Shown here: piece after piece, positions 2,385 to 29,476 of the stretch
How the letters are laid out: the number at the start of each line of letters is the position of its first letter
Position numbering within the stretch: the stretch's first letter is position 1
NCBI GenBank assembly: GCA_029551395.1
Contig: JAKPFN010000060.1
Coordinates: forward strand, 1-36,710
Reading direction: 5' to 3'
DNA length: 36,710 nt
Origin: Armatimonadota bacterium
GTDB taxonomy: Bacteria > Armatimonadota > UBA5829 > DTLH01
Made by a program: the position numbers and the translations under genes
Notes under the pieces: generated by a model
Databases searched by the model: none
Told to the model about the DNA's origin: nothing
The model's input: only the letters and a program-made list of their open reading frames with translations

Positions 2385-5300
2385 CTATTCTGTCCAGACT
2401 CCTGCTGGGCCGACTATCTCTGTTACGGCTGCGAAGAATTGAGGGGATGGTGCAACGCAGCACTCGGTGTAAATCCGCATAAAGCCACCGTTTCTTGGAG
2501 CATGTATGTAAACAGGCAGTTCACCTGGGTGCTCGGAAACCACTGTTCTAAGGTCAGCAAGCGACTTGTGAAGCTCAGGTTTAATGCGGATATGCACAGC
2601 AGAAGTCCCTCCAAGCTCTATAGAAGGTCTTGAAGAGGTTTCCTCCTGCTCGGAAACCAGCCTTAACCGCGGCTTATGGCCGTTCCCACTGCCGTTTTTC
2701 AATTCCTCTATGCTTTCAGCAAGCACTTCTACCTGGTAAGACTTGTCATCTTCACCATTATTCGTGTTTATCAAACGTTCCCGATGGCTCGCCTTGCCTC
2801 TGATTACAACTACCTTGTCCTTGATAAGCTGGTCCTGGCACTGCTTGAACACAGAAGGGAAAACCGTCACGGAAATCGGGCCTGTAAGGTCTTCTATCTT
2901 GATGAATGCCATCCGCTCGTTGGACTTTTTGGTCATGTGATACTTAAGCTCGGTTATCAGCCCGCCGACAACACATTCCTGCGCGTCAGACAGCTCCTGC
3001 AGTTGGTCCGAGGTTATGGTTATCGTCTTCTCAAGTGCTTCCCGGACATGCTTGAGCGGGTGGTCCGAAACGTAAAGCCCCAAAAGGTCCCTTTCCATCG
3101 CAAGCAGTTCATCCCTGGTGAAATCGGATGCTCCTTCGAGGTCGATCTCCATCGGCATACCCAGGTCGTGTGTGTGCTCCTGAATACCACCAAAAAGCGC
3201 TGCCTGACCGTTCATCTTGTCCCGGAAGATGGCCGATGCCCTTGCCATAGCCTGGTCGAGCATCTCAAGCGCTACTTTCCGGTTCGGGATGATGGACGCA
3301 AATGCCCCTGCGCGAATCAGTGTCTCGATTGCACTCTTACCGACCTGACCGCTTTCCATCACTCTTACGCAGAAGTCCTGAAGCGACTTGAACGGCCCTC
3401 CGGCCTTTCTTGCTTCGATAATCGACTCAACTACACCCTTCCCGCAGTTCTTTATGGCTGCAAGTCCGAACCGGATTGCTCCATCCTGAACACAGAAATC
3501 AGCTTCACTCCGGTTGATGTCAGGCGGAAGCACTTCAATCCTGAGACGGCGGCACTCTTCGATGTAAAGCGCGACTTTGTCCTTGTTATCGAAGTGCGTG
3601 GCAAGAAGCGCTGCAAAGTATTCTACGGGATAGTTAGCTTTAAGATAGGCTGTCTGGTAAGCCACATGCGCGTAACAGACGGCGTGCGCTTTGTTGAACG
3701 CATAACCTGCGAATGGTTCTATGAGTTCGAATATCTCGATAGCTTTTTTCTCTGACAGCCCGTTCTTTTTCGCACCTTCGATGAAAGAGGTCTTCTGTTT
3801 AGCCATCTCCTCCTTCATCTTCTTGCCCATCACTCTGCGGAAGATGTCGGCCTGTCCCAGCGTAAACCCGGCTATAGCGCGGACGATGTGCAGGACCTGG
3901 TCCTGGTAAACGATGACGCCATAAGTTTCTTTGAGGATAGGCTCAAGCGACGGATGCGGATAAGTGATAGGTTCCTGGCCGAATTTGGACATGATGAACC
4001 TTGGAATATGGGCCATCGGGCCGGGACGATAAAGCGCGACCATAGCTGCAAGCTCTTTTACCGAGTTAGGCTTGAGGTCGCGGATGTTCTTACGCATTCC
4101 TGCGCTTTCAAGCTGGAAAACCCCGGTTGTGTCACCTTTTCCAAGCATCTCATAGGTCTTTTCGTCATCCAGTGGTATCTTGTGGATGTCTATTTCTATA
4201 CCCTGGGTGTGCTTGATGTTCGAAATGCTGCGGGCGAGAATGGTCAGGTTGGCAAGCCCCAGGAAGTCCATTTTGAGCAGCCCGACCTTTTTCAGCCCAT
4301 CCGCATCGTACTGGGTGACAATTTCACCTCTGGCACCTTTTTGAACTGGAACATGGTCTGTGAGCGGGTCATGAGAGATGATGATACCGGCTGCATGGAC
4401 GCTTGCGTGCCGGGATATGCCCTCAAGCTGCTTTGCGGTATCTATCATCCGCTTGATATCTTCCTGCTGATACAGGTCTTTAAGCTCAGGGACTTCTGAA
4501 AGCGCTTTATCGATTGTTATACCGACTGGGATTGTCGGGATAGCCTTACAAGTTCGGTCTATTAGTTGAGAATCTATGCCGAGAGTCTTGCCTACGTCTC
4601 TTATTGCGGCTCTGGCGGCAAGCGTTCCGAAGGTGACTATCTGCGCTACGTGGTCCTCTCCGTGTTTTTCCGTGACCCACCTGATGATATCTTCCCGGCG
4701 GTCGTCCTGGAAGTCCATGTCGATATCAGGCATCTCGATTCGCTCGATATTCAGGAATCGCTCGAATGTCAAATCGAACTCTATCGGGTCAAAGTCTGTA
4801 ATATCGAGGCAGTAGCACACAAGACTGCCGGCAGCGGAACCTCTGACGCCCATGAAGATATTGGAACTCCGCGCGAACTGAGCATATTCCCGGACAATGA
4901 GCATATAGCGCGGAAATCCGCACTTGTTGATTGTGTCTATCTCATAACGCAGGCGGTCTCGGTATTCCTGAGGCGCTCCAGGGTATTTTCTTTCAAGCCC
5001 TTCCCAGGCAAGAGCTTCCATATAAGAGCTGTCATCCATACCAGCGGGAATAAAAACCTCGGGAAGCTGCAGCCTTGAGAAGTCAAGTTCAACGTTGCAC
5101 CGTTCTGCGATTTCCAGAGTGTTCTCTATAGCTCCAGGGATGTGTCCGAAGAGTTTTGCCATCTGCTGGGCACTCTTCATAAAGAACTCCTGAGAGCCGA
5201 AGCGCAGGCGCTTGGGATCGTCCATCGTGGAACCGGTCTGGATGCACAACAGGATATCGTGCGCGGCGGCATCTTTTTGTCTTAAATAATGGATGTCGTT

Positions 5301-9573: not shown

Positions 9574-12500
9574 ATGAAATCAGCCCAGGTAGAAAACGGT
9601 TCCCACACTGGCATTGTTGCAGAACTGGCCAAAATCTCCCGTAAGCTTTGCCGCTATAACCCTCAGCGCATTGAAATTGCTGATGTCCTTCAAATACTAT
9701 GCACTGCCGTAGGTGCAGATATTGCGATAATGTATTTGGATTCCGGCCAGCAGTGGTCTACTGCTGAGTCCAAATATGTGGATGACGAGCAAATCGAGAA
9801 TGCACTGAAAAATCATCTTGCCATTTTCTCCGGCAGCATGGTTTCTCACTTGGGGAATAGTACAGACGGTGTGGAGGCTGTTGTATCATCTGACGGAGAA
9901 TCCTGCAGTTACTTGAGTGTTCCAATAAGTTCATGTGGTAAGGTACAGGGAGTTCTTCATGTTCGGTCTGACAAGCCCGAAGCTTTTACCTCAGAAGACC
10001 TCGATGTGCTGCACATTACAGCTTTTCAACTAGGCCCATATCTGAAGAACCTGGCAAGTCCAAATGTTCCAATCACCAGTATGAAACCTTTCTATGGGCA
10101 GGATTACTGTCACCATGCAATACTGCTTGATAGCTTAGCTGAGAGTATTTCCGTCAATCTTGCTTATTTGGACAGAGATTTTAACTTCATTTGGGTCAAT
10201 AGTGCTTATGCGGAAAAGTCTGGGTACAGCCGTGAGCAGATGATTGGGCGGAATCACTTTGAACTCTTCCCCAATGCAGAAAACCAGGCCATATTTGAGA
10301 AGGTAAGGGAGGCAGGGGAGCCATATGAAGCTATAGAGAAGCCATTTGTGTTTCCAAACCAGCCTGAGAGAGGCGTGACTTACTGGACCTGGACGCTTGC
10401 CCCAGTCAAAGATAAAAGAGAATCGGTAATTGGGCTTGCTCTGTCGCTTTGTGATGTTACTGATGATGTCCGTACGCGTCAGAAAATCTCAGCACTTCAA
10501 CTCGATGCTGAACGCAGGGCAGAGGAACTTCAAGCATCAGAAGAGCGTGCAGTAAGTGTTCTTGAAAGTATAAGCGACGGGTTCATGGCACTGGACAGTG
10601 AGTGGCGCTTTGTTTACATAAACCAGGAAGCTGAAACACTGCTGGGAATGTCTAGAACAGAATTACTTGGCAAGGTAATCTGGGAAGAGTTTTCCGAAAC
10701 AGCGAAAACCGACTTCTTCCTTGCTGCCAAAAGGGTAATGGACCAGAGACATCCTATGACAGTGGAGAGTTACTCGCCTGTAATTCAAAAGTGGATAGAA
10801 AGCCGGATTTTTCCTTCTGTTGATGGTATTTGTATTTATTTCCATGACATTACAGACCGCATACAGGCTCAGGAAGCACTTCGTATAAGCGAGGAGATAA
10901 ACCGTGCCATCATCTCTGCCATTCCTGACCCCATATTCCACGTAAATAAAGAAGGCGTATTCCTAAGCACTAACAGGCTGTATGGTTCAGGATTTCCTAT
11001 TCCAGCAGGCGAGTTCCTCGGCAAGAGTATTTGTGATGCATTACCAGAGCATTTAGCCAGCTTGACAACAGCCAATATAGCTAAAGCATTACGTACAAGG
11101 CTCGTCCAGACTTACGATTTCATAATTGAACTTCATGGCCATGAGTGCATCTACGAAGCTCGTGTGATTCCTGTCAATTCGGAAGAAGTACTTATCCTGC
11201 TGCGTGATGTAACAGACCTTCGAAAAGCAATAGAGTCACTTAAAGAGAGTGAAAGACTGTTCCGCACCATATTCGAATCTACCCAGGATGCAGTTGTAGT
11301 TGTTGATGATAAAGGATGTATTGTAGATGCTAATGAGGCAGCATCTGTAGTGTTCGGCCTGTCGCGCAGTCAACTTGCTGGACGTTCTGCTGGCGATTTC
11401 CTGCCCAACCTGCCTGATTTTAAGACTGTTTTGACTGGACTTGAAGAAAGTGGAAGGTTTAAGGGAGAGTATCAGATAAGTGACGCCCAGGGTGTGCCTA
11501 GAGATATTGAGTACTATGTTGTGACCAGCATTCTTCCTGGAAAGCACCTTGGAGTCCTCCATGATGTAACCGAACGAAAACGGGCAGAAGAGGACCAGAT
11601 TCGGTATATGTCCGGGTTGGACAACCTGATTCGGGTTACTGCTGAAGTTTTATCTGAAACCACTGAGGATGGTCTAGCCAGACGCATTGCAGAAGCAGCT
11701 CGCAAACTCACTGGCGCGAAGATGGCTATCTGCGGGCAGGTGTCGGCTGATGGTGGGATTAAGGTTGGCGGCATATCGATGGCTCCAGGTATCATATCAA
11801 GGATGAACTGTACTGAACCTAAAATACCGTCTTCGGGGGTATACCGGGAAGTCATTAGCAAAGGTATTGCTATTCGACTGACTAATAGTGAACTGCAGAG
11901 TCATCCAGCAAGGTGCGGCTTACCGGAAAACCATCCTAAACTACGAGGGCTGCTTGCTGTTCCATTGGTTGGTGAGGATGGCCGTCCGTCGGGGATGATT
12001 GCTGTGTCTGACAAAGAGGAAGGCGATTTTACAGCCGAAGATGAGGCGCTGCTTTCACAGCTTGCACTGCTGACTTCTCTTGGTCTAAGGCATATTGCAG
12101 CAAGAAACGATGCCGAGATGAGGGCGCAGGAAGCAGAGACAGGAAAAACAATACTGGATGCGCTTATGGAGCATGCGCCGGAAGGCATTACCATTGCTGA
12201 TGCCCCGGATGTACGGGTTCGGATGGTCAGCAGGCATGGACAGGAGCTTGTAGGTCGGCCTAAAGAAGTTCTGGAAGGTGTAGCTGTAGACCAGCACGCG
12301 CAGGTTTGGGGAATGTACAACGCTGATGGCAGCAGTCTTGCAGTTAATGAGGAACTCCCACTTGTTCGCGCTACATTGAAGGGAGAAGTTGTCAGGAACG
12401 AGGAATGGATGCTGTGCCGTCCTGATGGCAAAATGATAACTACTCTATGCAATGCGGGGCCGATTAGAGACAAACATGGCAAGGTCATCGGCGGAGTCTG

Positions 12501-13293
12501 TATGTGGCGGGACATCAGCACTATCCGCAAGGCAAGAGAGATTCTGGAAATTGCCTATGAGCGTGAACATCGTATTGCAGATGCTTTCCAGAAAGCATTA
12601 ATCCCTAAAGTAGACTTAGACCTGGAACATCTTAGAATATATGGCCGATATAAGGCGGCGTTTACAGAGGCCAGAGTGGGAGGAGATTTTTACGACCTGT
12701 TTAACCTGCCGGATGGCAAGATTGCGCTGGTCATGGGCGATGTTTCAGGCAAGGGACTGCAGGCAGCAGTGCATACGGCTACTGCTAAGTATATGCTGAG
12801 AGCATACGCGCATGAAGACCCGGAGCCAAGGCGAGTTATTGAAAGACTTAACCGGGCTATGTGCCAGTATACTCCAGAGACATTGTTTGTCACCTTGATA
12901 TATGGAGTGCTGGACCCGGAGAAGTGCAGCCTGCTCTATGCAAATGGAGGACATGATGAACCTCTGCATTACATTCATCGGCTAAAATGTGCTGTTCCGC
13001 TGGATGTAACAGGACGCGCGGTTGGGATTATTCCGGAGTCTGTTTACAGCCAGCGGATGCTTCAACTGGAACCGAATGACGTCCTCTTGATTTATACAGA
13101 CGGTATTACCGACGCACGCAGCCAGAGCAGATTTTTGGGGATAGAAGGGCTTATTGATATTCTGGTGCCGAATGTAGATAAAGACGAGCGGAGAATTGCT
13201 GAAGTTGTTTTTGATGAGGCAACAAATATGGCAGGCGGTAGTCTGCGGGATGACGCTGCTGTTTTGGTGCTTAAAGCAAAAGCGGGGGAGTAG
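9574..13293 (+). CDS. Multi-sensor GAF/PAS protein serine phosphatase (SpoIIE/RsbU type)
   Basis: A 1239-residue cytoplasmic sensor-phosphatase. Rough domains: GAF 20-165, PAS 187-305, PAS 323-436, PAS 438-556, PAS 558-674, GAF 683-840, PAS 857-991, PP2C/SpoIIE 996-1237. Several PAS units end in the usual D[IV]T[DE]R-type linker. The phosphatase keeps its metal-binding motifs: GGDFYD at about 1036, GDVSGKG at about 1055, YTDGITDA at about 1174 and RDDAA at about 1225. Such enzymes remove phosphate from a STAS-domain anti-sigma antagonist. The next gene, two bases downstream, encodes exactly such a STAS domain, so that is the likely substrate. No transmembrane segment is seen, so signals are probably cytoplasmic ligands. 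The start has only a weak upstream GGGTGG, but no better start is nearby. Confidence 0.93.
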   Translation: MKSAQVENGSHTGIVAELAKISRKLCRYNPQRIEIADVLQILCTAVGADIAIMYLDSGQQWSTAESKYVDDEQIENALKNHLAIFSGSMVSHLGNSTDGVEAVVSSDGESCSYLSVPISSCGKVQGVLHVRSDKPEAFTSEDLDVLHITAFQLGPYLKNLASPNVPITSMKPFYGQDYCHHAILLDSLAESISVNLAYLDRDFNFIWVNSAYAEKSGYSREQMIGRNHFELFPNAENQAIFEKVREAGEPYEAIEKPFVFPNQPERGVTYWTWTLAPVKDKRESVIGLALSLCDVTDDVRTRQKISALQLDAERRAEELQASEERAVSVLESISDGFMALDSEWRFVYINQEAETLLGMSRTELLGKVIWEEFSETAKTDFFLAAKRVMDQRHPMTVESYSPVIQKWIESRIFPSVDGICIYFHDITDRIQAQEALRISEEINRAIISAIPDPIFHVNKEGVFLSTNRLYGSGFPIPAGEFLGKSICDALPEHLASLTTANIAKALRTRLVQTYDFIIELHGHECIYEARVIPVNSEEVLILLRDVTDLRKAIESLKESERLFRTIFESTQDAVVVVDDKGCIVDANEAASVVFGLSRSQLAGRSAGDFLPNLPDFKTVLTGLEESGRFKGEYQISDAQGVPRDIEYYVVTSILPGKHLGVLHDVTERKRAEEDQIRYMSGLDNLIRVTAEVLSETTEDGLARRIAEAARKLTGAKMAICGQVSADGGIKVGGISMAPGIISRMNCTEPKIPSSGVYREVISKGIAIRLTNSELQSHPARCGLPENHPKLRGLLAVPLVGEDGRPSGMIAVSDKEEGDFTAEDEALLSQLALLTSLGLRHIAARNDAEMRAQEAETGKTILDALMEHAPEGITIADAPDVRVRMVSRHGQELVGRPKEVLEGVAVDQHAQVWGMYNADGSSLAVNEELPLVRATLKGEVVRNEEWMLCRPDGKMITTLCNAGPIRDKHGKVIGGVCMWRDISTIRKAREILEIAYEREHRIADAFQKALIPKVDLDLEHLRIYGRYKAAFTEARVGGDFYDLFNLPDGKIALVMGDVSGKGLQAAVHTATAKYMLRAYAHEDPEPRRVIERLNRAMCQYTPETLFVTLIYGVLDPEKCSLLYANGGHDEPLHYIHRLKCAVPLDVTGRAVGIIPESVYSQRMLQLEPNDVLLIYTDGITDARSQSRFLGIEGLIDILVPNVDKDERRIAEVVFDEATNMAGGSLRDDAAVLVLKAKAGE

Positions 13294-13295
13294 AT

Positions 13296-14042
13296 ATGCA
13301 GATTGTAAGGAGTGAAAAGAATCCTCCTCGTGTAACTGTGATGGGAGAGATCGATTTCTCAGCTTGCAGGCGATTGCGCAGTGAGTTAAACCATGCGAGC
13401 CAGGACGACTGCAAAATACTTGAGATAGATCTTTCAGGTGTGGATTTCATTGATTCCAGTGGAATAGTTGTGCTGCTTGATACTGCAAAAGCTCTTCGTA
13501 AACAAGGCAAAGAACTCCATGTGGTAATGTGCAGTGACAATGTGTACCGTGTGCTTTTCTCATGTGGAGTTGCAGAGGTATTGGGAGTTCCATCTGGTGG
13601 TCTGCGGACTGATCGCAATGACTATTCTGGCTGCGGAAAGCGGTGGCTGGTCTCTTCATTTACCGTACCAGCCAGTATGACATCACCAGGTATCATCAGA
13701 GACCGCGTCAGTCAGATTATCTCTGACTTGCAGTTATCGGATGATGATGTAGCTGATATCAAGCTTGCTGTTGGTGAAGCTGCTACCAATGCATTCAAGT
13801 ATGGGTGTACTGAGAGCAGCCAGAAGATTCATATTAAGTGTATTGCGGACAACTGCAGGCTGACTATAGAGATTACCGATCCCGGCTGTGGATTTGACCG
13901 TACGGCAGTCTGTCCTCCAGATTTTGCCAACCTTCCTACCGGTGGAATGGGAATAGCCATCATGGAAATGATTATGGATGAGGTAACATTCAGAGTAAAC
14001 GATGGAATGACTGTCCGAATGGTTAAACAGCTTCAGAACTGA
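13296..14042 (+). CDS. Fused STAS antagonist and RsbW-like HATPase (anti-sigma kinase)
   Basis: A 248-residue protein joining two partner-switching roles that are normally separate. Residues 1-105 are a STAS domain like RsbV/SpoIIAA with DSSG at 53-56, where one of the serines is the usual phosphorylation site. Residues of about 125-248 are a GHKL ATPase like RsbW/SpoIIAB: N-box E161 and N165 (VGEAATNA), G1 box DPGCGFD at 195-201, and G2 box PTGGMG at 214-219. It starts two bases after the phosphatase stop with a GGGGGAG site upstream, so the two are co-transcribed. The phosphatase probably dephosphorylates the STAS serine while the attached ATPase domain or another kinase phosphorylates it. 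The final target is not in the window. Confidence 0.92.
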   Translation: MQIVRSEKNPPRVTVMGEIDFSACRRLRSELNHASQDDCKILEIDLSGVDFIDSSGIVVLLDTAKALRKQGKELHVVMCSDNVYRVLFSCGVAEVLGVPSGGLRTDRNDYSGCGKRWLVSSFTVPASMTSPGIIRDRVSQIISDLQLSDDDVADIKLAVGEAATNAFKYGCTESSQKIHIKCIADNCRLTIEITDPGCGFDRTAVCPPDFANLPTGGMGIAIMEMIMDEVTFRVNDGMTVRMVKQLQN

Positions 14043-14060: not shown

Positions 14061-14774
14061 TTAGACTGAGTCTTGGCATTTTACTATTTCTATTGGCGTA
14101 AATCCGGTATAATCGACAGATGCCAGATGGTAGTTTATACCTCCGACATTTCCTTGCAAGTATGACCCGGTGCCTCTATGTATATGTCCATAGACCAGAA
14201 TGTCTACATTGAACTCCTCGAGGATGTATCGAAAATCATTTGGCTGAAGGTTCAGGTCGAATGGCGGATAATGAAGCATTACGACCTTGACAGCAACATC
14301 CTCAGGCAGTGATTCAAGAGCGCGGCGCAGGTAGGCAAGCTCACGATGATAGATTTTTTCATCCTGTTGTTTTGGGCCTTCCAGTTCGTAGTCTTCGAGC
14401 CTCCATCCGCGAGTTCCTGCAACCCCGACACCATTCATTACAGTGCTTGTTCCCTGAAGTAGGATTATACTGGAATCTATCATTCTTTGTATTCTTGTTG
14501 TTGCCTGTCTGCTCCACCAGTAGTCATGGTTGCCTCGTATCAGGAGTTTTTTGCCTGGTCTGGCAGCCAGATATTCGAGGTCAGGCATTGCGTCTGTGAG
14601 GCGCATAGCCCATGAAGTATCACCTGCTACAAGTACGACATCATCTTCTGATACAATCTTATCCCAGTTCTCAGCAATCCGCTGCGGATGGTCTTTCCAC
14701 TGCGGTCCGAAAACATCCATAGGTTTCGGATTAGCAAAGGAAAGGTGCAAGTCTGATATGGCAAATACTGTCAT
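14061..14774 (-). CDS. Calcineurin-like metallophosphoesterase
   Basis: A 237-residue soluble phosphoesterase. All metal-site motifs are present: DLH at residues 8-10, GD at 51-52, GNHDYWW at 81-87, a LHYPP block and a GHIHRG motif near the C-terminus. Size and layout fit the predicted phosphohydrolases of the COG1768 type; substrate unknown. I chose the ATG at 14774 because GGAG lies four bases upstream and it starts two residues before the first beta strand; a frame from 14804 adds ten residues with no ribosome site. It is convergent with the STAS-HATPase gene, with an 18-base gap between the two stops. Confidence 0.9.
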   Translation of the reverse strand: MTVFAISDLHLSFANPKPMDVFGPQWKDHPQRIAENWDKIVSEDDVVLVAGDTSWAMRLTDAMPDLEYLAARPGKKLLIRGNHDYWWSRQATTRIQRMIDSSIILLQGTSTVMNGVGVAGTRGWRLEDYELEGPKQQDEKIYHRELAYLRRALESLPEDVAVKVVMLHYPPFDLNLQPNDFRYILEEFNVDILVYGHIHRGTGSYLQGNVGGINYHLASVDYTGFTPIEIVKCQDSV

Positions 14775-14913: not shown

Positions 14914-14942
14914 TTGTCTGTGCATTATTACTGGCCTATAAT
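14914..14942 (+). promoter_or_regulatory. Promoter of candidate small RNA
   Basis: TTGTCT at 14914-14919 and a perfect TATAAT at 14937-14942 are exactly 17 bases apart. Transcription would start near 14949. No plus-strand gene follows for more than 8 kb. Confidence 0.7.
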
Positions 14943-14948
14943 AGATAG

Positions 14949-15029
14949 TGAGGTTGAGATTGCTCTTATGAGTAACCTCAGTCTCCAGGTCGGGAAGTAG
15001 GCCAGGCTTCCCGACCTCTTTGTTTTCTT
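14949..15029 (+). ncRNA. Candidate small RNA of about 80 nt
   Basis: The unit has a promoter, a 5' hairpin (TGAGGTT 14949-14955 with AACCTCA 14974-14980, 18-base loop), seven unpaired bases, then an intrinsic terminator. No open frame with a ribosome site lies in it. The genes on both sides are on the minus strand, so neither explains a plus-strand promoter and terminator here. It lies just past the stop of the 5'-nucleotidase-like gene (15057) and would be antisense to the 3' end of that transcript. I do not recognise an Rfam family. The evidence is structural only; expression is not shown. Confidence 0.65.
14988..15029 (+). terminator. Strong intrinsic terminator of the candidate small RNA
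   Basis: GGTCGGGAAG at 14988-14997 and CTTCCCGACC at 15007-15016 form a perfect 10-base-pair stem with a 9-base loop, followed by TCTTTGTTTTCTT. On the minus strand no U-run follows, so it works for plus-strand transcripts. Confidence 0.88.
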
Positions 15030-15056: not shown

Positions 15057-16460
15057 TTACTCTTGTTTTTCCACCTTACTAGATTTCACTGACTTAAGGT
15101 AATTCATTACTACCTCAGATACCCGTCCATAGGTATTCTTTATCTTAATCTGTTTACCTTCTTCCCAGGAATCGACCAGGTAATCTTCAGCAGCGAGTAT
15201 ATACATCTCATCCGGATGGATTTGCCCCAAGCCGGCTACAGCAGGTTTAACTTCGGCAATGAAATCCAGCAGTTGTTTGCCTGTAAGCTCTACTGTAACA
15301 ACAAAGTTGTAGTACGGGTATACCTTCAGCACATCTAATCTGGTTACTTGTCCGCCGGGAAGGCCGGATTCAATCCCGCTTTCGCTGTGAGCGCCAATGT
15401 CTGCTCCGGTGACACTTCTTATAGCTTCTGCCGTCCACTTTGCCATCTGCTGTGCTGGTATCGGCTGGTCAAGCGTCCCAAGTGGTGTTATTAGTGGCTT
15501 TAAGTAAGGTTCCAACACCTGATTGATAGCAGAAAGCTCAGGTGTTTTATTATCTAAGGGGATTAATTGGTGCCTGAAATGTCTTACATCGTAATTGTTA
15601 TCTTCAGTTGGGCTGAAAACTAAATCAAGTCTGCTTAGATATGCTCCCCATTCGCCTGCGTGTACTATCAGAGGGTTGATTCTAGACCCTTTTTTCCCGC
15701 TGGTCGGTCTGAATGTCCAGGTGTGGGAATCTCCGCCAATGATGACATCTATTTCCGGCAGTTCGGCGGCAAGTTGAAGGTCTAAATTATACCCTATATG
15801 AGTCAGGGCGATTACCACATCGACCTGTTTGGCTAGTTTCGGGACTATTTCTCTTGCGGTCTCAATTGGGTCCGATATGACAAGCCCTTCAGCTTCGGGA
15901 TACTCCGCTACTCTTGGCGCAAGAAGTCCGATGATGCCGATTTTCAATCCCTGCACGTCCAATATTGTATAAGGAGCGACCAGTGGATTGCCTGAGCCTT
16001 TTTCGATGATGTTAGCGCACACAATGGGGAACTCCGCCTGCTGCAGCCGTGCTCTTAAAGCCTGTTGTCCTGCAAATCCCCTATCGCCTTTGAACTCATT
16101 ATTGCCAATGGTCATGACATCGCAGCCAAGGGCGTTCATGACAGCAAAATCAGGTTCTCCGAAGTATTCCTGCCCGAGTGGGCCGCGGTTAAACACGTCA
16201 CCTGCTTCCATCACGAGTACCGGGCAGTCAGATTCTTCTTTTATTTTCTGGATAAGACCTGCGCGGCGCGCTACTCCTCCAACATTTTTACAAGCTCCAT
16301 AATCAAAAGGCAGCAGATGGCCGTGCAGGTCGTTGGTGTGAAGAATTGTGAGCTTGAACTCACCAGGCAGTGAAGTTTCATCCAGGGCAAATGAGAACTG
16401 CAATGAGCTTGCCAGAATAACTAGAACAAGCCAAATAGTCCAGCGGTGTTTGATTGTCAT
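15057..16460 (-). CDS. Secreted 5'-nucleotidase (UshA-like) homologue with altered active site
   Basis: A 467-residue exported protein with a signal peptide at about 1-25. It has the N-terminal metallophosphatase domain (HTNDLHGH with D44 and H46, EAGDVFN with D88, LTHIGY with H221) and the C-terminal 5_nucleotid_C domain (LDVLKVYPYYNFVVTVELTG). Several key residues differ from the family. The usual GNHEFD is GNNEFKG, so the catalytic His and Asp (His117 and Asp120 of E. coli UshA, from memory) are N121 and K124. The usual GGHSH is GGDSH, with D244 in place of a metal-binding His. The NxGGIR substrate loop is SESGIE, losing the Arg. Overall length is normal. I chose the ATG at 16460 where the signal peptide begins. 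It may be inactive or act on another substrate. Confidence 0.88.
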   Translation of the reverse strand: MTIKHRWTIWLVLVILASSLQFSFALDETSLPGEFKLTILHTNDLHGHLLPFDYGACKNVGGVARRAGLIQKIKEESDCPVLVMEAGDVFNRGPLGQEYFGEPDFAVMNALGCDVMTIGNNEFKGDRGFAGQQALRARLQQAEFPIVCANIIEKGSGNPLVAPYTILDVQGLKIGIIGLLAPRVAEYPEAEGLVISDPIETAREIVPKLAKQVDVVIALTHIGYNLDLQLAAELPEIDVIIGGDSHTWTFRPTSGKKGSRINPLIVHAGEWGAYLSRLDLVFSPTEDNNYDVRHFRHQLIPLDNKTPELSAINQVLEPYLKPLITPLGTLDQPIPAQQMAKWTAEAIRSVTGADIGAHSESGIESGLPGGQVTRLDVLKVYPYYNFVVTVELTGKQLLDFIAEVKPAVAGLGQIHPDEMYILAAEDYLVDSWEEGKQIKIKNTYGRVSEVVMNYLKSVKSSKVEKQE

Positions 16461-16559: not shown

Positions 16560-18308
16560 CTACCAGATTTCGGGGAATGAATGAATTTCAACCTGTTCAG
16601 CCTTGTTGGTGATATCCATTTCTATAACTACCGATGTTCCGCCTGGACCCGTACAAAGTGAAACCTGGTCAGACAACGATAGTATGACCGCGTAGCCCAT
16701 TCCAAGTGAATGCCCTGTAGAATAACCCAGTTCCAATGTAGCACGCGGTAAAATAAGTGCATCCATACCAGGGCCATGGTCGCTTATGCGTGTCAGCAGT
16801 CGATTGTCATCACGCAGCAGGTCGACAACACCTCCGCCAGCATGTTTCAAGGCATTCGTTGCTGCTTCACCTACGCACAGCGCGAGGTTTTCAATCCTGG
16901 TCTCAGACATATTGAACTCCCTGGCATATTCATCAACAGAGCGTCTGACAATGCCGATATCCACAGGTTTTTTGATTTCCAAAGTTTCAAGTAGAGTGCC
17001 TGGGATTGTGGATATTTCTTCCGGTTCCAGAATCATCAATTTGCCGCCGGTTGCAGCCATGATAGTCTGCTTATAAAACTGCCTCTGCTGTTCTTTGAAG
17101 TATTCTTCCATCCGCCGTTTTGACTCTTCTGCCTGTTTTTCTGCAGTTACATCCCGACAGATGGCTAGAATTCCTGGAGAGTTGCTGCCTGGCAAGTCTA
17201 TAACGGAAAGCCGGGCTTCCATAATGAAGGTCGTAAGGTCTCTGCGAGCCTGAATAGTCTCTCCAACCCATCGCCCGGTTTCCAGTGTTTCTTTGAGAAT
17301 TCTCGCAGCTTCTTTAGGGCTTTGCATAAGGATAGAGCCAGGCTTACCTTCCAGTTCTTCCTGAGCGTAACCATGCATTGCAGCACAGGCAGGATTGATG
17401 TAAGCTATGGTTCCATTACTCTTAACAACAAGTATGCCATCGACGGAAGTATCTACTGCCTGTTTGAATAGGCAGAGTTCTTCTTCTGCCTTCTTCCGGG
17501 CAGTTATATCACGCAGCGCCGTCACTCGGGCTGGCTGGTCTTTATAGACCATGCTCCTGCCCTGAATCTCTGCAGTAAAAACTGAGCCGTCTTTTCTACG
17601 GATTGTGACCTCATAAGGCTCTTCGGAACCAGACAATATATGCTTCATAACTTCATTCGCTGATTCCGGAGTGAATATATCCACCCTTCTTTTCCCGATT
17701 ACATCAGAACGGTTATATCCGGTTGCTCTTGTAAAGGCTTCGTTTATCTCAAGGCCGACACCCTGATTATGGATCACGATTCCCTCAAATGCAGCATCTG
17801 AGAGGGCGTGGAATCTCTCTTCACTTGCTTTAAGTTGTTCTTCAGCGGCGAGTCTATCGGTATAGTCTTCATGTTGGATTACTGCATAATGAACACAATC
17901 GTCTTCCTGAGATTTAATTGGAAAAATGAAGACTCGGAGATACTTATGAGTAGCACCAGGTACGTTGACATGCCCGGCTCTGCTGAAGTCATAATCAAAG
18001 GTGCCTTCAAACGGGATTCCTTCATCAAATACCCGCTTTATTGCTGGGATCAGCCCCTGTTCTTGCAGCACCTGATCTGCAAAAAGATTATACTTGCCGA
18101 CAACCTGGTCATCTGAGTCGATACCGAACATTGCCCGGTTTGCAGCATTCTCAAAAATCAGAGTGCCTTCTTTATTTGCTACCCATGTGCTGATAGGGCT
18201 TTGAAGGATTATCTCTCTGAATACGGAATCGAGTGCCTCAAATCCTGTTTCCAGACCTTCTGCAGTCACATCAGTATTTGCCTTATTGATTGAGGTTCTT
18301 TCAGGCAT
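16560..18308 (-). CDS. Triple-PAS protein with RsbW-like HATPase domain
   Basis: A 582-residue soluble protein. Three PAS regions lie at about 28-155, 160-275 and 280-400, two ending in the usual D[IV]TA-type linker. A short linker follows, then a GHKL ATPase domain in the last 140 residues with N-box VGEAATNALKHAG, G1 box DHGPGMD and a G2-like STGHSLGMGYAV. There is no HisKA dimerisation helix with a phospho-accepting His. It therefore looks like a serine-kinase or switch protein of the RsbW/RsbT class rather than a histidine kinase. Its ATPase N-box closely matches that of the STAS-HATPase fusion at 13296-14042. A 99 bp gap separates it from the downstream nucleotidase-like gene on the same strand, so they may be co-transcribed. 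Confidence 0.88.
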   Translation of the reverse strand: MPERTSINKANTDVTAEGLETGFEALDSVFREIILQSPISTWVANKEGTLIFENAANRAMFGIDSDDQVVGKYNLFADQVLQEQGLIPAIKRVFDEGIPFEGTFDYDFSRAGHVNVPGATHKYLRVFIFPIKSQEDDCVHYAVIQHEDYTDRLAAEEQLKASEERFHALSDAAFEGIVIHNQGVGLEINEAFTRATGYNRSDVIGKRRVDIFTPESANEVMKHILSGSEEPYEVTIRRKDGSVFTAEIQGRSMVYKDQPARVTALRDITARKKAEEELCLFKQAVDTSVDGILVVKSNGTIAYINPACAAMHGYAQEELEGKPGSILMQSPKEAARILKETLETGRWVGETIQARRDLTTFIMEARLSVIDLPGSNSPGILAICRDVTAEKQAEESKRRMEEYFKEQQRQFYKQTIMAATGGKLMILEPEEISTIPGTLLETLEIKKPVDIGIVRRSVDEYAREFNMSETRIENLALCVGEAATNALKHAGGGVVDLLRDDNRLLTRISDHGPGMDALILPRATLELGYSTGHSLGMGYAVILSLSDQVSLCTGPGGTSVVIEMDITNKAEQVEIHSFPEIW

Positions 18309-23163: not shown

Positions 23164-24024
23164 ATGCGTTTGACAACACTGCTGTTGGTGTCAGTGCTAG
23201 CGTTAGCAGTTACATCTGTTTTCGCAAATGGTATTGGACCAACTGATGACACGGAAGTAATTACCCCGGAGACTGAGATAATTGTTCCGGAAACAGAAGT
23301 AATCATTCCGGAGACCGAGGTAATTGTTCCGCCTGTTGGCACTGGGCCTACTGCACCTGTGGTGACTACACAGGCTATGGTTTCAGAAGTTGAGATGTTC
23401 AACACCAATCTGGTAGTGACAACATTCAACGTAGACCGCTCGACTGTTGTAGCACTACGTCAGGCAGGTTGGTCATGGGGTGATATTCATCTGCTTGCGA
23501 ATATTGCAAGCAGGACAAATCGTCCCATAATCGAGATTGCCAACTGGCGCAGCCAGGGATTGACTTATGAGCAGATAGCGCAGCGCTACAACCTGACAAT
23601 GGCCCAGTTGATTACGCCGGATATGGTTCGCACCAGAGTGGCAGGATTTGTTACTGAGTACGGCTATCAGCCGCTTTACTACAGGACAGATCCATGGGGC
23701 AATCCGGTTCTGACTCGTTTTGAGGCAGAGAGGCTCATGAGACTAGGCTACGATTGGCAGAATATTGCTATTGCTGCTAACGTTTCTGCTGAGACTGGCG
23801 CAAATATCCGAGATGTATTGTCCTGGATCGACCGAGGCTACACCTGGGATCGGGTAGCCAGGGAGTACGGTCTGAACATAGACACGATCACGGACGTTCG
23901 TCAGTATCCGTTTGCAAGAGATTCGGGAACGATGATGATTCCGACAACTGCGCCGGTCACTCCGCCGACAGGTGCAGGCCCAATGGTGCCAGGTACAACA
24001 ACTGTACCGCCGCCTGTGTATTAA
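23164..24024 (+). CDS. Secreted protein with 7-residue repeats and duplicated helical domain
   Basis: A 286-residue exported protein; the signal peptide ends at about VFA-NG. Residues 30-57 are four heptads of the form TE[VI]I[TVI]P[EP]. A duplicated unit of about 55 residues follows: the first copy has LRQAGWSWGDIHLLANIA, a Trp-containing linker and GLTYEQIAQRYNL; the second has LMRLGYDWQNIAIAANVS and GYTWDRVAREYGL. This G.[ST][WY]..IA..[YL]..L pattern resembles a repeat seen in other bacterial secreted proteins of unknown role. The C-terminal 45 residues are rich in Pro and Thr. AAGGAGGGAG lies a few bases before the ATG, so translation is probably strong. No catalytic motif is seen; a structural or binding role is a guess. 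Confidence 0.82.
   Translation: MRLTTLLLVSVLALAVTSVFANGIGPTDDTEVITPETEIIVPETEVIIPETEVIVPPVGTGPTAPVVTTQAMVSEVEMFNTNLVVTTFNVDRSTVVALRQAGWSWGDIHLLANIASRTNRPIIEIANWRSQGLTYEQIAQRYNLTMAQLITPDMVRTRVAGFVTEYGYQPLYYRTDPWGNPVLTRFEAERLMRLGYDWQNIAIAANVSAETGANIRDVLSWIDRGYTWDRVAREYGLNIDTITDVRQYPFARDSGTMMIPTTAPVTPPTGAGPMVPGTTTVPPPVY
23251..23334 (+). repeat. Four 21-base coding repeats
   Basis: Four in-frame 21-base units encode TEVITPE, TEIIVPE, TEVIIPE and TEVIVPP. The units differ mainly at third positions, so the repeat is under protein-level constraint or is old. Confidence 0.85.
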
Positions 24025-26614: not shown

Positions 26615-29458
26615 TTACTTTACTACCTTTACTTTTATCACAGCAGGCTCGCTCATACGGATACCGTCCATTACGTAGAGCATATATTCATACTCTCCAG
26701 GTTCTGAAGGAGCCTTACCTTTGTAAATAGCTGTCTGATTAAGTCTAGCGCGTTCAGTGCGGTGATAAGCGTCTCTCCATCTGTAGATGAGCGGCTGGCC
26801 TTCAGGGTCGCTGCTCTTGGAGCCGTCTATTGTAAACTCTTGACCGCATTTGACTGTAATCTCCTCAGGCGCAACAGCTATCGGCCTTAGATTCTTTCCA
26901 GGGTTACTTTTTTGAGCCTTCGGTTCGACTACAGGTGTAACCTTACCGGTAGATGCAAGGCTGGTGCGAATGGTATATGTGCCCTGCAATTTTTCACCCG
27001 AGAAAAACGCCTCGTTGAAAGTCGACTGCGGCAGCCAGTGCAATTCAGTCTGGTCTCCACTTACTATTTTTATGAGCAGCAGTCCTTCCAGCGACTCTAC
27101 ATTTGAAGTAAATGCCGTGTCGGTCTTAACGCGGCCAAACGGGTTCCATACGTAGATTTTCCCGTCTATCTCGTCCGTTTCAGGATCGTCCCAGGTGTCG
27201 CATGTTTCGTTAGGTATGACAAACCTGCCTTCTTCGTCCGTGTTGCCGATGAACTTCGGCACATCCGGGAAGTATTTGGCGCTGGCATCAGGAGGAGCCT
27301 GAGTGGTGTGATAAATGTATACCGCAGCACCTGAAAGCGGCTTATCATTGATGTCATACACCTTCAAGACATGTTTGAGAGCGGGCATCAGCCTGCCGTG
27401 GACTCCCCAGAAGTTATCACTGCGATAACGGGCGAAGTGCTGCACCTGGCCTGCACAGGCAGGTGAAAGCCACATGTGGCAGTAGCTCATCAGTGGGTCA
27501 TATCCGACTCCGCATGGCACGCCCTGAATCGACGCAAGCGGGAGCGTGTAGTAACCGAACAGCCAGCTTCCGCCGCCTCCGACTATCTCAGGGAACATCG
27601 AGGTTCCGGCATACAGCTTGCCGTTCTCATCCTTCAGGTATACGCTGTCAGCTCTGACTGGATAACCGTAAAGATCGGGAAGTGCAATACAGGTATGTCC
27701 TAATTCATGAATCAGACCGGCAGCTATTACCATCAGGTTGCCGCTTGGGTCGTCGTAGATAGGGAAACCACCATCGTAGTATTCGTATACCTTCTCATAC
27801 TCCTGAGCTTCAGGTGCAGCATCTGAAAGAGGGATGAAGTTATCTGTCCGAACGGCATCTTTGACACCATACGGGCTTGTTGTTGGATAAACCGCATCCT
27901 GCATGACCAGCGTCAAACGGTCCAGATGAGCATTGAACCAGTCATAGAGGCTGAATGAACCTACAAGGTTGATCTTGCGGTTAGCATAATCCTGCTTGAG
28001 CACTTTTTCCTTGTAACCCCATCGGCAGGCGCGGGCTACATTCAGCTCAGTGCGCTGGTTGTTTGCTTCGCACAGTTCGTCAATGTTTTCGTAAGGATCC
28101 AGCGTTACCCGAACCCATACCGGGTCGTTTGTCCAGTCCCAAGGGAAGGTTAGGGATGTCCTCTCGCCGGGAGCCAGTGGTTTATCGATGGTCTGAACGG
28201 CTGTGGAGATGAGTTTATCATCTGCATCTGCACGGAAGTTGCCGTTGGCATCGAGAATCAGATCGAATTTGACCACAGAACCGGACGGGACTGGCTTGTA
28301 GCCGTAGTTGCCTACATGCACGACGCTTTCAACCCTTTCTCCGTCAGCCGGCCACCACTTTTCGCTTTTTGAAGAAAACCTGGGCAGCCGTTCTACGTAG
28401 AGCAGGTCAAGGTCAGGCTGGTCTATCGGAATTACCTGGAGATCATACGCAGCTTTCATGCCTCTGAATTCGGCCATGAGAATGCACCTGCCGACCGATT
28501 TGCCTGTGACCATACCATCAGCATCCACAGTTGCTATTTTGCTATCTGAAGTGCTCCATTTGATGTAAGGTTTGGCGTCAAAATCACCCCAGTTGCCGTA
28601 TCCGTCAGTGAAATCAGTGATGCGGACCATCTCAGAGCCGAATTTTGCCTTAAGACCGAACTGTTTGGGGCAGCCGTTTACGACTCGGCTGTCCGAAGCT
28701 ATCAGACAAGGTTCGTGGTCTATCTCTATAGCCGTAAAAGGCGCTGTTCTGAAGTAATCACGGTGAACAATGGCTATCTGAGAATACCTGTCTTTTGGAT
28801 TCTCCTTCTGGATGTAGACATCAAACCAGTTGCGGAAGATAAGCTCGTCCATGACAGCATCGGAAGTCTCATCACCGAGCCACACCCGCTTGTCGGTCAT
28901 AGTTTTCGGGTTCAGGAACTCATTTCCTGATGCTATGGGGCCGTCAACGCAGGTTTTGTCTATCCAGAGAGGCGTGCCGATTCTAACGCCATTATCTGAC
29001 ATCCATGCAATAGCAATATGATGCCACTCACCAGCTTTCCAACCAGAAACATCAGCACGGGACACGGTTGTCTTCTTCGGTGAAGCCATTACATAACGGA
29101 GCATCCCGGAGTCCGACTTTTCTACCAAAAGACCGTTTACTGACGGGTCGCCAATCCTCAATATTCTGTGAGTTTTCCCATCATTTCCATTCCAGTTGGG
29201 TTTGATCCAGAAGCTTATCAGGCCATTTTCCTGAACAAGCAGTGGATTGTCTACGGGATATGGCCTGGCCAGTACAATCCCGCTTCCCGCAGTGCCGGGA
29301 ACTTCGGGAAGTGCATCAGCAGGTTTTGCTGCTCGGACACCATTTTGAATGGTCGCGTCCGTAAACCAGGCCAGGGCAGAACCAGGCTCAGAGTTTAAGC
29401 CTATACATTGTGTGCATAACACTGCACATAACAGCAGCACATAGGAAAAGAACTTCAA
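26615..29458 (-). CDS. Secreted multidomain LamG/CARDB/zinc-peptidase-like/PKD protein
   Basis: A 947-residue exported protein. Rough order: signal peptide 1-22; LamG-like domain 35-215 (SFWIKPNWNG); Big_2-like domain 240-335 (WSTSDSKIATVDADGMVTG); CARDB domain 340-465; peptidase-like domain 480-700; carboxypeptidase-regulatory-like domain 715-800; PKD-like domain 865-947 (DGSKSSDPEGQPLIYRW). The peptidase part has HELGH at 584-588 and LPDLYG with D595, like M6 immune-inhibitor-A peptidases (HExGHxLGLPD) but one residue longer, and DPLMSYC with M657 as a possible Met-turn. I chose the TTG at 29458: GGAGG lies five bases upstream and the signal peptide starts there, whereas the GTG at 29470 overlaps the ribosome site. 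It is last in a likely unit with the GH63 and GH31 genes and paralogous to the left-edge gene. Confidence 0.85.
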   Translation of the reverse strand: MKFFSYVLLLCAVLCTQCIGLNSEPGSALAWFTDATIQNGVRAAKPADALPEVPGTAGSGIVLARPYPVDNPLLVQENGLISFWIKPNWNGNDGKTHRILRIGDPSVNGLLVEKSDSGMLRYVMASPKKTTVSRADVSGWKAGEWHHIAIAWMSDNGVRIGTPLWIDKTCVDGPIASGNEFLNPKTMTDKRVWLGDETSDAVMDELIFRNWFDVYIQKENPKDRYSQIAIVHRDYFRTAPFTAIEIDHEPCLIASDSRVVNGCPKQFGLKAKFGSEMVRITDFTDGYGNWGDFDAKPYIKWSTSDSKIATVDADGMVTGKSVGRCILMAEFRGMKAAYDLQVIPIDQPDLDLLYVERLPRFSSKSEKWWPADGERVESVVHVGNYGYKPVPSGSVVKFDLILDANGNFRADADDKLISTAVQTIDKPLAPGERTSLTFPWDWTNDPVWVRVTLDPYENIDELCEANNQRTELNVARACRWGYKEKVLKQDYANRKINLVGSFSLYDWFNAHLDRLTLVMQDAVYPTTSPYGVKDAVRTDNFIPLSDAAPEAQEYEKVYEYYDGGFPIYDDPSGNLMVIAAGLIHELGHTCIALPDLYGYPVRADSVYLKDENGKLYAGTSMFPEIVGGGGSWLFGYYTLPLASIQGVPCGVGYDPLMSYCHMWLSPACAGQVQHFARYRSDNFWGVHGRLMPALKHVLKVYDINDKPLSGAAVYIYHTTQAPPDASAKYFPDVPKFIGNTDEEGRFVIPNETCDTWDDPETDEIDGKIYVWNPFGRVKTDTAFTSNVESLEGLLLIKIVSGDQTELHWLPQSTFNEAFFSGEKLQGTYTIRTSLASTGKVTPVVEPKAQKSNPGKNLRPIAVAPEEITVKCGQEFTIDGSKSSDPEGQPLIYRWRDAYHRTERARLNQTAIYKGKAPSEPGEYEYMLYVMDGIRMSEPAVIKVKVVK

Positions 29459-29476
29459 GATCGCCTCCACAAATAA

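Follow-up and report, generated by a model that had tools for sequence, protein, structure and literature searches.

A predicted free-standing small RNA gene, most likely encoding a trans-acting regulator, conserved within one bacterial order

Positions 14914-15029 of the window, as the whole stretch of 36,710 nucleotides analysed is called here, appear from their sequence to be an independently transcribed small RNA, a free-standing gene whose product is most likely a trans-acting regulatory RNA. On comparative grounds it is highly probable that 14949-15029 corresponds to a real and conserved small RNA gene, and the complete explanation, in which an order-conserved regulatory RNA of about 80 nt acts through the pairing of its AGGCCAG loop, is slightly favoured. 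The features of the locus are the following:

14914-14919, plus strand: -35 box TTGTCT of a sigma-70-type promoter.
14937-14942, plus strand: -10 box TATAAT, after a 17-base spacer.
14914-14942, plus strand: the whole predicted promoter (TTGTCT/TATAAT), present as the same TTGTCTGTGCA...TATAATAGAT in the same-family genome G001.
14949-15029, plus strand: small RNA of about 80 nt (81-mer) with sequence-predicted ends, supported by its fold (z -5.3), a match to covariance model R2 and homologues.
14950-14985, plus strand: hairpin 1 at the predicted 5' end, variable in sequence, with the basal stem kept among relatives.
14987-15017, plus strand: hairpin 2, of 12 pairs, the last of which is U.G; terminator stem in this genome.
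14999-15005, plus strand: apical loop AGGCCAG, closed by U.G 14998-15006, the proposed active site.
15018-15029, plus strand: U-rich tail CUUUGUUUUCUU, absent or weak in G001, G002, G004 and G017.
Ending at 14061, minus strand: open reading frame of a metallophosphoesterase (calcineurin-like) neighbour.
Stop at 15057, minus strand: 5'-nucleotidase-like neighbour.

The sequence motifs taken by themselves are not above chance in the window, where the scans returned five promoters against 4.8 expected from shuffled sequence and two terminators against 2.1; the element stands above chance because of its fold and because ten other genomes conserve it, not because of motifs alone. In particular, the RNA starting at 14949 has a minimum free energy of -38.5 kcal/mol, and none of 200 shuffles was as good. 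A first-pass annotation had proposed a stand-alone small RNA at this place, and most of the anatomy it described was recovered: the TTGTCT and TATAAT boxes are present at the 17-base spacing, folding yields the 5' hairpin expected at the predicted +1, both flanking genes are read from the minus strand, and no credible gene follows on the plus strand until one starting at 23164, a distance of 8.1 kb that agrees with the 8 kb it had given. The terminator followed by a U-tract was likewise found, with a stem of 12 pairs instead of the 10 described. RNA polymerase would start at about 14949, hairpin 1 would cap and stabilise the 5' end, and transcription in this genome would stop at the U-tract after hairpin 2.

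The search for homologues began with a 136-base region as BLAST query against 101 relatives, and this gave a strong match in G001, which belongs to the same family as the window genome (E 9e-10), together with short matches of 86-90% over hairpin 2 in G004, G007, G012, G014 and G017. The loci found by BLAST share a common anatomy consisting of a -10 box, a hairpin, a gap of 1-2 bases and a second hairpin tipped by GUAGGCCAGGC. Covariance model R1, built from seven copies (the window and the six BLAST relatives) and run on 397 genomes, recovered G002 (E 6e-12), G005 (7e-9), G003 (1e-7) and, weakly, G011 (E 0.004), all of them outside its training set. The second model, R2, which matches the window at 14949-15022 with 64.1 bits, was applied with deeper scoring to the genomes that remained in the order and class, where it found no further member. 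The family amounts to 11 single-copy genes in one order, of which two are in family f1, seven in family f2 and two in family f3, and BLAST and the two models gave no credible copy in the sister families or elsewhere in the phylum. Eight other f2 genomes of the order hold no copy detectable by R1 or R2, so the small RNA is dispensable or has diverged there; G018, among the f2 genomes lacking a copy, is only 67% complete, and G015 is without one though the four other members of its genus carry it.

Several further matches were rejected. Those of R1 outside the order, with E up to 0.1, are weak, and the ones at L127, L128, L131 and L132 lack the loop or the fold; the weak model matches read in G006, G016 and G020 have no loop or lie in coding sequence. 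A match on a viral contig (L199) and loop matches at L012, L018, L023, L025, L068 and L109 occur without the two-hairpin fold and the promoter and are attributed to chance. The plasmid collection gave no match to the small RNA. As regards the window genome itself, it is probably an Armatimonadota MAG, because the neighbouring phosphoesterase has its closest named relatives in Armatimonadota MAGs, at 52-55% identity.

The comparison of the 11 members in the model-aligned set indicates that the structure is maintained by compensatory changes, as is characteristic of trans-acting small RNAs: 9 of the 17 pairs are changed on both sides and 96.8% of the cells hold standard pairs. Helix 1 has such double changes in three of its six pairs, with 92.4% of its cells paired; in helix 2 the figures are six of eleven and 99.2%. 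The covariation score is 0.447; shuffles give 0.229, and with the partners slid by 1-3 columns, a displacement that abolishes the signal, it does not exceed 0.186. Since the alignment had been fitted to the structure, each RNA was also folded alone; 10 of 11 form both hairpins, with z from -3.9 to -5.7, and G011, where a good -10 box is absent, has a weak fold (z -0.7). The promoter and its distance to hairpin 1 lie outside the covariance models, and 10 of the 11 members, among them G002, G003 and G005, have a -10 box that precedes hairpin 1 by 6-7 nt. Between the window genome (G000) and G001 the promoter is conserved, whereas the sequence of hairpin 1 is unrelated yet still folds.

The loop AGGCCAG is identical in all 11 members, between two variable stems, and is closed by U.G in ten of them and by U-A in G002. 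The U-tract is poor in G001, G002, G004 and G017, where the first 10 bases that follow the stem contain 2-4 T; as a consequence, neither termination nor the binding of Hfq to a U-tail is conserved, and the intrinsic terminator with U-tail typical of Hfq-dependent small RNAs is not found in all members. Hairpin 2 thus seems to be kept for its loop and not for terminator function: the terminator role assigned to it in the first-pass annotation fits the window, but the invariant loop and the missing U-tract of four relatives indicate that it is not only that.

The loop is considered the active part because it holds the only conserved unpaired bases. It would pair with complementary CUGGCCU sequences in target mRNAs, probably with the aid of Hfq, which these genomes encode, and the pairing would change the translation or the decay of the targets; this is the most likely mode by analogy with EcpR1, and such an action in trans is given an even chance. 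Hfq, recognised as a PF17209 match, is encoded in 10 of the 11 members, and the same search did not find it in G001 (92% complete). The targets were sought by sequence patterns only: CTGGCCT before GGAG and ATG gave 54 matches and its reversed pattern 34, and no enrichment over the reversed-pattern control was seen for the longer complement GCCTGGCCTA. Among 30 of the CTGGCCT loci that were read no orthologous target genes appeared, most of these loci being inside coding sequence or before no long open frame. At one locus, G000:C12:14343-14380 (L205), CTGGCCT immediately precedes what is credibly the ribosome-binding site for a secreted LamG-like protein, a candidate target, and the start of this protein resembles those of window ORFs 2-409 and 26615-29470.

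The same loop might be the site for an RNA-binding protein, which the RNA would titrate or modulate in the manner of CsrB or 6S RNA. A compact loop of 7 nt, closed by U.G or U-A and containing the sole invariant unpaired bases, would be readable by a protein, and the failure of the pattern searches to reveal a conserved mRNA target is in line with such a role. This reading is nonetheless rather unlikely: each RNA has a single loop of this kind and each genome a single gene, whereas titrating RNAs carry many sites, those of the CsrB/RsmY type having several loop GGA motifs; the single AGGCCAG loop is without the GGA motif for CsrA, and nothing 6S-like emerged from the Rfam search.

The GGCC palindrome within the 7-nt loop, unchanged in all 11 members, could also allow two RNAs to form kissing dimers, the dimer being the active or the storage state. 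Only four pairs would form, however, and the flanking A and AG are equally invariant although a four-base kiss does not need them; natural variants of the loop that would permit a comparative test are absent, and the dimer is regarded as improbable.

A more speculative view, considered rather unlikely, is that of an undescribed order-wide family in which the invariant palindromic loop is no ordinary mRNA seed but a dedicated element for recognition by a protein or by a kissing loop, and which has an operator of its own upstream. If this were true, it would represent a kind of signalling RNA unseen in model bacteria.

Upstream of the promoter, all four members of genus g3 have the direct repeat TTAAGG-N5-TTAAGG (L150-L152, L200-L203), some 50-70 bases ahead of the -10 box, and these genomes contain no other instance of it, as expected for a separately controlled gene. 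Its 11-base period is of the kind bound by regulators of the OmpR/PhoB type. The repeat may also serve the divergent folB. The looser pattern CTTAAG-N5-CTTAAG occurs, besides the small-RNA sites, only as isolated sites at unrelated genes, and was dropped as a clue to the regulator. TTAAG repeats 22 bases apart were seen by eye before the g7 copies (L111, L112).

Returning to the proposed trans-acting RNA, its independence from neighbouring genes is indicated by the -10 box that 10 of 11 members possess and by flanks that differ among f1, f2 and f3. The copy in G001 adjoins a gene judged acetylesterase-like by reading of its sequence, the f2 copies have folB on one side and, on the other, the pyr operon (g3 and, loosely, g9) or secDF (g7), and a histidine kinase adjoins the f3 copies. 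Such differences between groups argue for a free-standing, movable gene and not for a leader or a conserved antisense RNA. The first-pass annotation had named, as an outcome that would speak against it, stems not conserved in relatives that keep the flanking genes; the comparison did not give this outcome, the stems being conserved, though without the flanking genes. Since the promoter keeps its position, the stems covary, the flanks differ and no Rfam family matches, the proposal of a stand-alone small RNA is upheld.

In the window the RNA overlaps in antisense the expected 3' UTR of the nucleotidase gene, as the first-pass annotation had also noticed, and on this basis it could be a cis antisense RNA or a terminator for that minus-strand gene. 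The overlap is peculiar to this genome, so it cannot be the conserved function: the nucleotidase gene adjoins the small RNA in no relative examined, which already contradicts a conserved cis-antisense role, and the hairpin is not followed by a T-tract when read on the minus strand. Both variants are considered very improbable. It is equally improbable, and largely refuted, that the RNA serves a downstream gene as 5' leader or attenuator, or that it holds a tiny reading frame closed by the UAG of the loop. In favour of these readings, the RNA does precede the pyr operon with its PyrR sites in g3, and G000 and G001 have an ATG frame of 10-11 codons that stops at this UAG. Against them, the g3 operon has, after the element, a promoter of its own, the differing flanks and G015 (which keeps the pyr locus without the RNA) rule out a pyr leader, no same-strand gene follows in f1 and different ones do in g3, g7 and f3, so that no conserved gene lies directly downstream, and the small frame is not conserved, lacking a start codon in G005 or G011 and yielding no conserved peptide.

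The PyrR binding site (RF00515), which in g3 is close downstream of the small RNA, is a separate element with its own promoter and is not adjacent in f1, f3 and g7. Such sites precede the g3 pyr operon at L013 1725-1833, L016 1608-1718 and L014 1240-1339, two of the three scoring just below the Rfam gathering threshold, and similar leaders were noticed by eye before pyrR in other genomes (L154-L159, L162).

In relation to known systems, the kind of RNA is known, and the family is new as far as tested. At gathering threshold no Rfam 15 family matched the window, in accordance with the earlier statement that no known family fits, and a relaxed search produced one spurious match (E 8.7); of the covariance searches that the first-pass annotation had proposed as a check, that against Rfam was thus empty, and the custom models recovered homologues. 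The literature searched contained no description of a small or regulatory RNA from Armatimonadota. The closest parallel is EcpR1 (SmelC291 family) of Sinorhizobium and other Rhizobiales, a transcription unit of about 100 nt with two stem-loops, in which one stem is variable and the other stem-loop has a strongly conserved GC-rich loop (PMC4414408; PMC3927594) that pairs with the dnaA and gcrA mRNAs (PMC4414408). The RNA described here similarly has its own unit, two stem-loops, a conserved loop and a variable stem; in contrast, the loop UCCGCCGCAUCU in stem-loop 1 that marks the EcpR1 family is not found, AGGCCAG being in hairpin 2, no homology was detected and the phylum differs. As in Hfq-dependent trans-acting small RNAs, the RNA is short, with a free-standing promoter and, in the window genome, a terminator with U-tail, and Hfq is present; unlike them, four members miss the U-tail and no unpaired seed occurs beyond the hairpin loops.

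Other features of the window concern signalling proteins. At 13296-14042 (plus strand) one protein joins a STAS domain of the anti-sigma-factor antagonist type to a HATPase_c_2 kinase domain of the anti-sigma-factor type, an unusual fusion of parts that are normally opposed. It is directly preceded by a large ORF (9574-13293) whose end looks by eye like a PP2C/SpoIIE-type phosphatase, and a protein with PAS domains and HATPase_c_2 at 16560-18308 (minus strand) is a second possible partner-switching protein near the small RNA. The 359-codon open frame at 2676-3755 (plus strand), antisense to a dnaE-like gene, is probably a shadow frame.

The small RNA could be picked from raw sequence by the anatomy of promoter, hairpin and terminator and then confirmed by comparison. 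The Armatimonadota would thereby gain a small-RNA family with 11 members, a candidate active site and a covariance model, by virtue of which expression, Hfq binding and the identity of the targets become directly testable.
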